Assembly (NCBI RefSeq): GCF_000423045.1
Contig: NZ_KE383972.1
Span: 329,670 to 393,669, forward strand
Direction: 5' to 3'
Source of the DNA: Christiangramia portivictoriae DSM 23547
GTDB taxonomy: Bacteria > Bacteroidota > Bacteroidia > Flavobacteriales > Flavobacteriaceae
DNA length: 64,000 nt
Within the stretch, counting starts at the first letter, position 1. Every line of letters begins with the position of its first letter. This document shows positions 56,859 through 59,528 of this stretch, piece by piece. Under the pieces are notes generated by a model, which saw nothing but the letters and a program-made list of their open reading frames with translations, was not told where the DNA came from and ran no database searches. Position numbers and translations under genes: made by a program.

Positions 56859-57320
56859 ATGGCAAGATCCGGACAAACCCAAAACAAAAGAGAGAAAGAA
56901 AAGAAGAAAATCAAAAAGCGTAAGGAGAAAGAAGCCAAGCGTTTAGAAAGAAAAGAAAATTCCAACAAAGGTGGATCATTCGAAGATATGATCGCTTATG
57001 TTGATGCCGATGGGAATCTAACCGATACTCCACCAGATCCAAGTCAAAAGGTAGAAGTAGAAGTAGAGGACATCGAAATTGCAATTCCGAAGAAAGAGGA
57101 CAGGGAGGAAGAGGAGATCATTACTGATACAGAAGGTAAGGTTTCATTTTTTGATCACTCTAAAGGATTTGGATTCATTATCGGAAAACAGACTGGCGAG
57201 AAATATTTCGTGCATGTGAGTGGTCTTATCGACGAGATCGATGAGAATGATAAAGTAAGCTTCGAACTGGAGCAGGGAATGAAAGGACTCAACGCTGTTA
57301 GAGTTAAGGTCATCGATTAA
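56859..57320 (+). CDS. Cold-shock-domain protein with basic N-terminal tail
   Basis: A 153-residue protein. Residues 1-42 are strongly basic with many Lys and Glu (KREKEKKKIKKRKEKEAKR). An acidic linker follows, and then a C-terminal cold-shock domain (about 90-153) with RNP1-like KGFGFI and RNP2-like YFVHVS. It should bind single-stranded RNA or DNA; the tail may add RNA contacts. It is larger than CspA (70) and stands before the desaturase and csp genes, so it probably belongs to the same cold response. The leader has a -7 box and hairpin. Confidence 0.85.
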   Translation: MARSGQTQNKREKEKKKIKKRKEKEAKRLERKENSNKGGSFEDMIAYVDADGNLTDTPPDPSQKVEVEVEDIEIAIPKKEDREEEEIITDTEGKVSFFDHSKGFGFIIGKQTGEKYFVHVSGLIDEIDENDKVSFELEQGMKGLNAVRVKVID

Positions 57321-57425: not shown

Positions 57426-57433
57426 TACATTTG
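57426..57433 (+). promoter_or_regulatory. Predicted -7 box of the desaturase-csp operon
   Basis: TACATTTG, exact match to TAnnTTTG. The -33 position holds GTG with a 19-bp spacer. The transcript would start near 57440. Confidence 0.5.
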
Positions 57434-57518: not shown

Positions 57519-58631
57519 ATTAATAGTACCAGTATCAACAATCCAATATTCGCTCAAAAACGAGCATCCGATTTCTCAAAGACTCTTCGAAGCCGGGTAA
57601 ATAGCTATTTCAAAAATAATAACATCAGTAAACATGCTAATGCAAGCATGATCGTAAAAACTGTGCTGATGCTATTGACATTTATAGTCCCTTTAATCAT
57701 TGTTAACACAGGAGTCGTTGAAAGCACATGGTTGTTGTTTGGACTGTATATTTTAAGTGGTTTCGGCATGGCTGGTATTGGCATGGGAATCATGCATGAT
57801 GCAATTCACAACTCTTACTCCAAAAATCAAAAGGTCAATCAATATCTGGGTTATACTTTAAATCTCATTGGTGCTAACGCAAGCATCTGGAGAATTCAGC
57901 ACAACGTACTTCATCATACCTTCACAAACATTGAAGAGGCTGATGATGATATTAATCCTCCATTTTTCCTACGTTTTACTCCGCATACCAAAAGATATAG
58001 GATCCATAAATTTCAGCATTTGTATAGCTGGTTCTTTTATGGTTTATCTACTGTAAGCTGGGTAACTGCCAAGGATTTTGTTAGAATGGCCAAATTCAAG
58101 AAAATGGGATTTTTCAAGGAAGGTAAAGAATTCAAAAAACAGTTACTTACCGTAATTGGCTGGAAACTGGTTTCTTTCTTTTTTGTACTCATACTGCCAA
58201 TAATCATGGCACCACAGGCATGGTGGATTGTTGTTATGGCTTTTATTAGCATGCACTTTGTTACAGGTTTAATGATTACTACCATATTTCAACTGGCACA
58301 TATCGTTCCAACCACGGAGTATCCACTGGCAGATGAAAAAGGTATTGTACAGGGTGACTGGGCAAGTCATCAATTATTGACAACAGCTAATTTTTCTCCA
58401 AAGAGCAGGTTATTTTCCTGGTTTATTGGTGGATTGAACTATCAAATTGAACATCATTTATTGCCTAATATCTGTCATGTTCATTATAGAAAAATATCAC
58501 ATATCGTAGCGCAGACCGCGAAAGAATACGGTTTGCCTTATCATAACCAGCATAGTTTTGTATCTGCCGTTGGTGAGCATTTTAAAATGCTAAGACAGCT
58601 AGGTAAAGTTGATACATTGAGAGTTGGATAA
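57519..58631 (+). CDS. Acyl desaturase without a canonical start codon
   Basis: A membrane di-iron fatty acid desaturase that introduces a double bond into acyl chains, as in adaptation to cold. The first ATG (57648) lies inside the fold. The frame is open upstream, and its product (ASDFSKTLRSRVNSYFKNNN followed by ISKHANAS) matches the soluble N-terminus of desaturases. No ATG, GTG or TTG occurs in frame there, so the likely start is ATT at 57519 (context AAA-ATT-AAT), giving 370 residues, the family's usual length. Histidine boxes are complete: HDAIH (about 93-97), HNVLHH (about 128-133), QIEHH (about 309-313). A sequencing error or frameshift is an alternative. Pseudoknot 1 starts 4 bp after the stop. 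Confidence 0.8.
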   Translation: MNSTSINNPIFAQKRASDFSKTLRSRVNSYFKNNNISKHANASMIVKTVLMLLTFIVPLIIVNTGVVESTWLLFGLYILSGFGMAGIGMGIMHDAIHNSYSKNQKVNQYLGYTLNLIGANASIWRIQHNVLHHTFTNIEEADDDINPPFFLRFTPHTKRYRIHKFQHLYSWFFYGLSTVSWVTAKDFVRMAKFKKMGFFKEGKEFKKQLLTVIGWKLVSFFFVLILPIIMAPQAWWIVVMAFISMHFVTGLMITTIFQLAHIVPTTEYPLADEKGIVQGDWASHQLLTTANFSPKSRLFSWFIGGLNYQIEHHLLPNICHVHYRKISHIVAQTAKEYGLPYHNQHSFVSAVGEHFKMLRQLGKVDTLRVG

Positions 58632-58634
58632 AAT

Positions 58635-58670
58635 AGATCGGAAGCCATACGATCTTAAAAGTTTAATGGC
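58635..58670 (+). promoter_or_regulatory. H-type pseudoknot before csp1 (copy 1)
   Basis: Stem 1 AGATCG (58635-58640) with CGATCT (58650-58655); stem 2 GCCAT (58644-58648) with ATGGC (58666-58670). Its end is 26 bp before the ATG at 58697. Both stems differ from copies 2 and 3 by compensatory changes. Confidence 0.75.
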
Positions 58671-58696
58671 AATTTATAACAATTAATAAGTAAGTA

Positions 58697-58891
58697 ATGC
58701 AAGAAGGAAAAGTGAAGTTTTTTAATTCAACAAAAGGATTTGGATTTATAAAAGCTGACGATTCGAACGAAGACATCTTCGTACACTCAACTGGTCTTAT
58801 CGACGAGATTCGTGAAGATGACAGAGTACAATTTGAAACAGAACAGGGAAGAAAAGGCCTTAATGCTGTGAACGTTGAAGTAATTGACTAA
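58697..58891 (+). CDS. CspA-type cold-shock protein, copy 1
   Basis: A 64-residue RNA chaperone that melts mRNA structure at low temperature. RNP1 KGFGFIK and RNP2 DIFVHST are intact. It is identical in protein sequence to copy 2 and differs in only a few third-codon bases. It starts 65 bp after the desaturase stop. The intervening bases are mostly the pseudoknot, so it is probably read from the desaturase promoter. Confidence 0.95.
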   Translation: MQEGKVKFFNSTKGFGFIKADDSNEDIFVHSTGLIDEIREDDRVQFETEQGRKGLNAVNVEVID

Positions 58892-58899
58892 TTACTGAT

Positions 58900-58918
58900 A
58901 AGTTTCAGCTTGAAACTT
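58900..58918 (+). other. Hairpin after csp1
   Basis: AAGTTTC (58900-58906) pairs with GAAACTT (58912-58918) around a five-base loop. No T run follows, so it does not look like a terminator; it may protect or separate the csp1 message. Confidence 0.5.
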
Positions 58919-58925
58919 AAAATAA

Positions 58926-58961
58926 GAGATCATGGCCGGGTGATCTCATAATAAATCCGGC
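58926..58961 (+). promoter_or_regulatory. H-type pseudoknot before csp2 (copy 2)
   Basis: Stem 1 GAGATCA (58926-58932) with TGATCTC (58941-58947); stem 2 GCCGGG (58935-58940) with TCCGGC (58956-58961), with one G/T pair at the end. Its end is 25 bp before the ATG at 58987. Confidence 0.8.
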
Positions 58962-58986
58962 GCTATTAACATATAATATTAAAGTA

Positions 58987-59181
58987 ATGCAAGAAGGTAA
59001 AGTAAAGTTTTTCAATTCAACAAAAGGATTTGGATTTATAAAAGCTGACGATTCTAACGAAGACATCTTTGTACACTCAACTGGTCTTATCGACGAGATT
59101 CGTGAAGATGACAGAGTACAGTTTGAAACAGAACAGGGAAGAAAAGGTTTAAACGCCGTTAACGTTGAAGTAATTGACTAA
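58987..59181 (+). CDS. CspA-type cold-shock protein, copy 2
   Basis: A 64-residue cold-shock protein whose sequence is identical to copy 1 (RNP1 KGFGFIK, RNP2 DIFVHST). Because the spacers have diverged while the coding parts have not, recent gene conversion or duplication plus strong selection is likely. It lies 95 bp after copy 1, which includes a hairpin and pseudoknot 2. Confidence 0.95.
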   Translation: MQEGKVKFFNSTKGFGFIKADDSNEDIFVHSTGLIDEIREDDRVQFETEQGRKGLNAVNVEVID

Positions 59182-59218
59182 TTACTCTTTGACGTTTGAT
59201 TTTCAGACTCAAAATAAC

Positions 59219-59254
59219 AGATCACTGCCGGATGATCTTTAAATGGAGCCGGCA
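59219..59254 (+). promoter_or_regulatory. H-type pseudoknot before csp3 (copy 3)
   Basis: Stem 1 AGATCA (59219-59224) with TGATCT (59233-59238); stem 2 TGCCGG (59226-59231) with CCGGCA (59249-59254). Its end is 25 bp before the ATG at 59280. Confidence 0.8.
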
Positions 59255-59279
59255 ACAATAACAATTAATTAGTATAGTA

Positions 59280-59474
59280 ATGCAAGAAGGTAAAGTAAAA
59301 TTTTTCAATGCAACCAAGGGATTTGGTTTCATTAAATCAGACGAAACAAACGAAGACATCTTTGTACACTCAAGTGGTCTTATCGATGAAATTCGCGAAG
59401 ACGACAGAGTTCAGTTTGAAACTGAGCAAGGAAGAAAAGGATTGAATGCTGTAAATGTTGAAGTAATCGACTAA
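59280..59474 (+). CDS. CspA-type cold-shock protein, copy 3
   Basis: A 64-residue cold-shock protein with few differences from copies 1 and 2 (for example Ala for Ser near residue 11, Ser-Asp-Glu-Thr in place of Ala-Asp-Asp-Ser, and SSG for STG). RNP motifs are intact. It is the last csp gene and ends in a strong terminator. The differences suggest it split first. Confidence 0.95.
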   Translation: MQEGKVKFFNATKGFGFIKSDETNEDIFVHSSGLIDEIREDDRVQFETEQGRKGLNAVNVEVID

Positions 59475-59499
59475 CTACATTCTATTCCATAGATCCAAA

Positions 59500-59528
59500 A
59501 GCCATCCCTAATAGGATGGCTTTTTTTA
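59500..59528 (+). terminator. Terminator of the desaturase-csp operon
   Basis: AGCCATCC (59500-59507) pairs with GGATGGCT (59514-59521) around a six-base loop and runs into seven T residues, 25 bp after the csp3 stop. Confidence 0.9.

Follow-up and report, generated by a model that had tools for sequence, protein, structure and literature searches.

The gene 32 protein (gp32) of bacteriophage T4 is an OB-fold protein. In the available text of PMC535899, the operator on gene 32 mRNA is described as a pseudoknot of about 28 nt followed by a segment of weaker structure that carries UUAAA/UAAA repeats together with the ribosome-binding site, and gp32 as nucleating at the pseudoknot and then binding cooperatively over the start region. 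Cold-shock (Csp) proteins, according to the accessible part of PMC4679880, have an OB fold and bind single strands. An extract of PMC9947658 reports that CspA of Escherichia coli binds its own mRNA, prefers YYR and stimulates its own translation in the cold, and that the cspA mRNA contains a cis-acting thermosensor. For Bacteroidetes, the section of PMC6847099 at hand describes mRNAs without Shine-Dalgarno sequences, whose initiation depends on low structure and A at positions −3 and −6.

The desaturase-csp operon and its three pseudoknots

We analysed a stretch of 64,000 nucleotides from Christiangramia portivictoriae DSM 23547 (hereafter the window), in which a predicted pseudoknot and an A+T-rich start region precede each of three tandem csp genes. 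The operon runs from a candidate −7 motif through a fatty acid desaturase gene and csp1 to csp3 to a terminator-like hairpin and contains the following features.

57426–57433, + strand: candidate −7 promoter motif TACATTTG of the operon
57534–58631, + strand: fatty acid desaturase (PF00487), apparent AUC start at 57534–57536
58635–58670, + strand: pseudoknot 1; stem S1 58635–58640/58650–58655 (AGATCG/CGATCT), stem S2 58644–58648/58666–58670 (GCCAT/ATGGC); loops L1 58641–58643, L2 58649, L3 58656–58665
58671–58696, + strand: A+T-rich start region of csp1, from the pseudoknot end to the ATG
58697–58891, + strand: csp1, cold-shock domain protein (PF00313), 64 aa
58899–58919, + strand: predicted hairpin after the csp1 stop, before pseudoknot 2
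58927–58961, + strand: pseudoknot 2; S1 58927–58932/58941–58946 (AGATCA/TGATCT), S2 58935–58939/58957–58961 (GCCGG/CCGGC)
58962–58986, + strand: A+T-rich start region of csp2
58987–59181, + strand: csp2, 64 aa, protein identical to csp1
59188–59213, + strand: predicted hairpin after the csp2 stop, before pseudoknot 3
59219–59253, + strand: pseudoknot 3; S1 59219–59224/59233–59238, S2 59227–59231/59249–59253
59254–59279, + strand: A+T-rich start region of csp3
59280–59474, + strand: csp3 (PF00313), 64 aa
59497–59524, + strand: intrinsic-terminator-like hairpin and T run after csp3

The three elements have a common H-type layout of 35–36 nt, S1(6)-L1(2–3)-S2(5)-L2(1)-S1'-L3(10)-S2'; S1 of pseudoknot 2 can be extended by the pair 58926/58947 and S2 of pseudoknot 3 by the pair 59226/59254. 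A preliminary description of this DNA had proposed an element of two interleaved stems before each csp gene, with both partners of three pairs differing between copy 1 and the other two copies, and the window sequence confirmed both statements. The spacings given there to the start codons (25, 25 and 26 nt) were right for copies 2 and 3, but copy 1 ends 26 nt before its start, so that the series reads 26, 25 and 26 nt with a 5-bp S2. The proteins encoded by csp1 and csp3 also matched OB_RNB (PF08206) with 22.5 and 21.3 bits, below the cut-off of 24.

The likelihood of such folds arising by chance was assessed by shuffling each 100-nt upstream region 1000 times with its dinucleotides preserved, and counting pseudoknots with a summed stem energy of −17 kcal/mol or lower. 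Such a pseudoknot ended 20–32 nt before the start in 0, 1 and 0 of 1000 shuffles for copies 1, 2 and 3, respectively, and occurred anywhere in the 100-nt region in 1, 8 and 3. At the same cut-off, the + strand of the window contained 14 sites, among which the csp elements rank 1, 2 and 4, and the − strand contained 15 pseudoknot sites of similar strength. Because stem strength alone is therefore not unique, the case rests on position and on conservation in homologues.

As to the other operon signals, TAnnTTTG is a −7 promoter motif; a scan for sigma-70 promoters was uninformative, yielding 14 sites versus 14.4 expected. Terminator-like sites numbered 4 in the 64-kb stretch versus 1.9 expected. 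The hairpins in the csp-csp spacers are more stable than those of shuffled sequences (mean z −2.5), with 31 of 32 distinct spacers below −1 and 19 below −2, and their base often reads TTATTTT...AAAATAA (32 distinct spacers, L001–L018). Because these spacers aligned poorly with MAFFT, we claim no covariation for them. RNAfold also predicted a hairpin near the beginning of the csp2 reading frame, at about 59004–59044, which may simply reflect the codons. Upstream of the operon, a gene at 56859–57320 codes for a 153-aa protein with a charged N-terminal part and a C-terminal cold-shock domain; it adjoins the operon in most loci compared, and no pseudoknot was found before its start.

The conserved N-terminus of the desaturase precedes the first ATG (57648) and would be lost if the start were called there. 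Among 20 desaturases of the genus (the window and loci L169, L171–L180 and L182–L189), none has an ATG, GTG or TTG in frame in the interval from the preceding stop to the conserved FSKTL/FSRTL motif. The codon 13–14 positions before that motif is ATC in 19 of the 20 and ATT in the remaining one, and it is preceded by an in-frame stop at a distance of 4 codons in four loci and of 2 codons in one. Outside the genus (L192, L195 and L196 among the loci), relatives in G083 and G084 have an ATG near that place, and those in G064, G024 and G034, which lack one, show ATC or ATT. Apparently, the desaturase starts at AUC, or at AUU in one genome. An ATG in some frame lies between the promoter motif and the ATC/ATT codon in 7 of 17 leaders, in five of them directly behind the motif, which leaves room for frameshifting. 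Readthrough of the desaturase stop with the help of pseudoknot 1 appears less plausible, as the distance from the preceding csp stop is 34–37 nt for copies 2 and 3.

Conservation and position of the fold in Christiangramia

Within Christiangramia, a genus of marine bacteria in the Flavobacteriaceae, all 55 csp genes of the array carry the pseudoknot; they occur in 21 of 24 genomes, with 1 to 4 copies per genome and 48–49 distinct element sequences. A search for csp genes at E ≤ 1e-20 returned 56 matches in the 24 genomes, namely these 55 and one elsewhere (G011:C3), and among named relatives of the csp2 protein the best is that of C. lutea (95% identity). We built a covariance model (R1) from the 55 elements, so their recovery follows by construction, whereas the absence of others does not. 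All 55 scored 28.4–57.8 bits and lie at the array; the next best match in the 24 genomes reached 20.4 bits, and no strong copy away from the array was present among the best 150 first-look candidates per genome. Three genomes (G015, G018 and G023, the last 67% complete) lack both an array csp and a strong R1 match, yet G015 has the desaturase. The csp genes of the genus that were found without the pseudoknot are the G011:C3 paralogue (MQEGTVKFFN) and the second csp genes of G000 and G018.

Covariation was evaluated on an alignment of the 48 distinct elements (A2) with 12 pairs and 573 pair cells, 96.0% of which pair. As a control, sliding the partner by 1–3 columns left 31–45% paired. Two-sided changes affect 8 of the 12 pairs in 44 cells; shuffling gave 10.0 on average and never as many in 500 rounds. 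Of the five shuffle measures, that of further pair types was equalled in 1 of the 500 rounds. By the APC-corrected G statistic, the predicted pairs 14-35, 15-34 and 7-17 rank 1–3 of 703 column pairs, ranks 4–17 are all taken by non-predicted column pairs, and five other predicted pairs rank 18–55. Three S1 pairs are invariant, and these together with the outer S1 pair rank 436–493, the outer one being 493. A longer alignment (A1) contains a misalignment at one S1 column that affects 9 rows; there, of the predicted pairs only two, both from S2, lead the list (ranks 1 and 2 of 2701), and S1 first appears at rank 30. Pairing is lost at the outer position of S1 in 5 of the 48 elements and at the optional sixth position of S2 in 16. 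According to these ranks, S2 is better supported by covariation, and S1 rests on the pair 7-17, the G-U evidence and the slid control.

The 525 stem cells comprise 467 Watson-Crick pairs, 51 G-U, 0 A-C and 7 others. The occurrence of 51 G-U versus no A-C pairs indicates that the sense RNA is under selection. The state GCCAT/ATGGC is scattered over several branches of a tree of 19 desaturase genes, which suggests that it changed more than once. In sequence, the S1 core GAT/ATC and two adenines of L3 vary little or not at all; outside the stems only these two adenines reach 90%, and L1 and L2 vary widely in sequence. The comparison of homologues thus shows a fold selected as sense-strand RNA, more for structure than for sequence.

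The distance from the pseudoknot to the ATG is 25–31 nt in all 55 cases and 25–28 nt in 51 of them, and this segment averages 87% A+T (range 78–93%) with the near-consensus AACAATTAATAAGTATAGTA. With the pseudoknot set aside, it is predicted to be unpaired with a mean probability of 0.56 at 10 °C, rising to 0.72 at 37 °C, and is thus open only in part. On the upstream side, the pseudoknot lies 31–44 nt past the csp stop in 34 csp-csp spacers and 3–11 nt past the desaturase stop in 19 loci. In G008 (L190/L019), no desaturase intervenes between a 152-aa gene and csp; the pseudoknot lies in a long leader about 160 nt past the 152-aa gene, and the csp gene has its own promoter-like motif, TAGGTTTG, about 160 nt before its start. 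Because the upstream gap varies and the gap to the ATG is near-fixed, the position of the pseudoknot tracks the start codon. No TAnnTTTG was found in the 34 csp-csp spacers, which makes control at the message level the simplest option. Judged by its position, the element probably functions at translation initiation, that is, in ribosome loading.

Genes for Csp proteins occur far more widely than the fold, which was found in one genus. In csp upstream regions of other genera, as recognised by script, no comparable pseudoknot was found at the same place. Two strong sites at L029 (−17.8 kcal/mol) and L063 (−20.1 kcal/mol) end 39–40 nt before the ATG and were rejected as unrelated. In a further 20 regions, the best csp site outside the genus was the same L029 site, and L165 had no recognised csp. 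Searching with R1 gave matches in 60 of 397 genomes of the family (E ≤ 0.1, including its own genome and G015) and in 8 of 395 genomes of the order (E ≤ 0.005, own genome included), which were weak apart from those of its own genome; the family scan drew only one other genome of the genus, and scans of more than 40 genomes apply stricter filters. Inspection of 35 non-own loci from both scans revealed no csp-like motif, and one exact 21-base pattern of one subtype had 0 matches in viral contigs. Desaturase-csp neighbours without a pseudoknot do occur in other genera, for example in G064 with an A/U-rich csp leader, so the pseudoknot may be a gain of Christiangramia on an A/U-rich leader of greater age. 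In two other genera, the regions preceding csp at L155 and L151 (G034 and G024) share GGATAGCTATATCC, a possible hairpin with the arms GGATA/TATCC.

The preliminary description had regarded the element as a functional RNA at the message level and had proposed to look for covariation before csp genes of homologues and to search flavobacterial genomes with a covariance model. The first view is strongly supported by the homologues in terms of covariation, G-U pairs without A-C and the near-fixed distance to the ATG; the covariation is present, and in the 24 genomes of the genus the search produced strong matches only at the csp array, with no csp-like motif at the 35 loci inspected from the wider scans. 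Of its narrower proposals, a translation enhancer or a guide for ribosomes is no more than a possibility, and a thermosensor that melts is disfavoured.

Possible functions of the element

We favour, tentatively and with rather less than even confidence, a translational operator akin to that of T4 gene 32 and bound by Csp itself. Each csp cistron of the desaturase-csp operon would have its own control element, consisting of the H-type pseudoknot and the A/U-rich start region of 25–31 nt, and the reader would be Csp, itself a small RNA-binding protein of the OB-fold type. Csp would nucleate or be anchored at the pseudoknot and would spread from there along the adjacent A/U-rich strand over the start codon. 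Plentiful Csp would reduce ribosome loading, as gp32 does on T4 gene 32 mRNA, and RNAs stabilised in the cold would draw Csp off, which would free the start regions and raise Csp synthesis. The least certain step is that the feedback would repress and not stimulate; because CspA stimulates its own translation in E. coli, the sign here could be the opposite. By comparison with gene-32-type operators, a predicted H-type pseudoknot lies upstream of the start region, and the gene product is a single-strand-binding OB-fold protein (PF00313 cold-shock domain). Against a reading by Csp, it may be held that the fold occurs in one genus, that several csp genes lack the element, that the A/U-rich tail is predicted to be open only in part, and that the cooperativity of Csp on this RNA is assumed. 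Since tandem duplication alone would spread the element, its presence before every copy is no proof of Csp reading either.

The near-fixed distance to the ATG and the conserved A/U-rich leader would also agree with an initiation element that needs no effector, which we consider rather unlikely. A rigid pseudoknot just outside the 30S footprint would either block pairing of upstream RNA with the A/U-rich start region or position the ribosome, allowing high csp translation without a Shine-Dalgarno sequence. Position −3 of the csp genes is G in 45 of 55 and A in 10 of 55, and the prevalence of G instead of the favoured A could leave room for another aid. However, a general aid would suit other abundant proteins as well, whereas no strong match lies elsewhere in the 24 genomes, and the csp genes examined in other genera showed no such pseudoknot at that place. 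The stable spacer hairpins after the stop codons, the unit order of hairpin, pseudoknot, A/U leader and csp, and the terminator-like hairpin after csp3 would fit a transcript that is cut between cistrons, with a 5' pseudoknot and a 3' hairpin shielding each csp message from decay. Such a role in processing or stability appears improbable, as the pseudoknot position follows the start codon and not the upstream 3' end, and copy 1, just past the desaturase stop, has no preceding hairpin. As a more far-reaching and quite improbable idea, the pseudoknot would dock on the 30S platform about 27 nt before the start codon as a structured ribosome-loading site that recruits ribosomes to csp in the cold; together with the AUC start of the desaturase, the whole operon would then rely on unorthodox initiation in a lineage without Shine-Dalgarno pairing.

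An RNA thermosensor, suggested in the preliminary description, would change its fold between cold and warm and thereby adjust translation. The genes are indeed cold-shock genes, and the E. coli cspA mRNA reportedly has a cis-acting thermosensor (PMC9947658; see also Giuliodori 2010, cited in PMC4166951). However, the summed hairpin-form energies of the elements average −19.5, −13.6 and −10.2 kcal/mol at 4, 25 and 37 °C (with artificial 4-nt loops and without pseudoknot loop cost), and the weakest of the 55 still has −7.0 kcal/mol at 37 °C under the same loop simplification. The stems are predicted to be stable at 4–45 °C, setting aside pseudoknot energies and alternative folds, and the pseudoknot does not cover the start codon. 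Melting within the growth range is disfavoured, both stems being predicted as stable at 37 °C in 55 of 55 elements (loop costs excluded), and we give a thermosensor only a small chance. H-type pseudoknots of about this size also occur as riboswitches, and the nearly invariant S1 core and L3 adenines would be compatible with a small-molecule riboswitch or an operator for a protein other than Csp; this is very unlikely, because the highly variable L1 and L2 form no conserved pocket-like loop and every strong match in the 24 genomes precedes csp. Finally, in many copies the palindrome GATC forms the basis of S1, as might be expected of a transcription factor site in the DNA. Such a site fails as the main account in view of the G-U versus A-C counts and the interleaved covarying stems, and, with the shuffles also taken into account, we regard a DNA-level palindrome or chance as almost certainly wrong.

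Relation to known RNA families

None of the 4227 families of Rfam 15, including Flavo-1, Bacteroidales-1 and Chlorobi-RRM, matched either strand of the 64 kb at its gathering score. Eight sub-threshold matches appeared at E up to 10, of which only that to RF01766 (cspA) overlaps an element: 18.7 bits against a gathering score of 78 (E 0.043) over 385 nt at 59143–59527, spanning the end of csp2, pseudoknot 3, csp3 and the terminator (model of 428 positions). The Rfam comparison proposed beforehand, with Flavo-1 and cspA included, thus yielded nothing at gathering score. The earlier remark that no published example was known is consistent with this result and with our finding none in the open-access literature, which is weak evidence of novelty.

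We describe a compact, covarying cis-acting RNA family absent from Rfam, with up to four copies per operon in the cold-shock array of one genus. The element is small enough for a full mutational analysis and offers a direct test of single-cistron control in a phylum with little Shine-Dalgarno use.

The cspA thermoregulator RF01766, the leader of E. coli cspA, resembles the element as a cis element of a csp message but differs in that the match is sub-threshold only. The gene associated with the Chlorobi-RRM motif codes, by its name, for an RNA-binding protein. In the portion of PMC2864571 available, Chlorobi-RRM (RF01697) is a candidate cis-regulatory RNA, like the present element, from which it differs in taxon and gene and in the lack of an Rfam match here. 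Its compact shape also recalls some riboswitches: preQ1-I and SAM-II are small H-type pseudoknots in leaders, and SAM-V is described as another in the part of its source at hand. The Christiangramia element differs from all three in having no conserved loop pocket, in occurring in csp context only and in the absence of an Rfam match.

The operators of gene 32 in T4 and RB69 share with it a short pseudoknot 5' of an A/U-rich start region in the gene of a single-strand-binding protein. In contrast to them, the element is cellular and repeated for each cistron, measures 35–36 nt instead of about 28, has a tail of 25–31 nt instead of more than 40, and shows no Shine-Dalgarno sequence; we do not claim sequence homology. 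If Csp reads the element, a phage-type autogenous operator would have arisen in a cellular OB-fold gene family.
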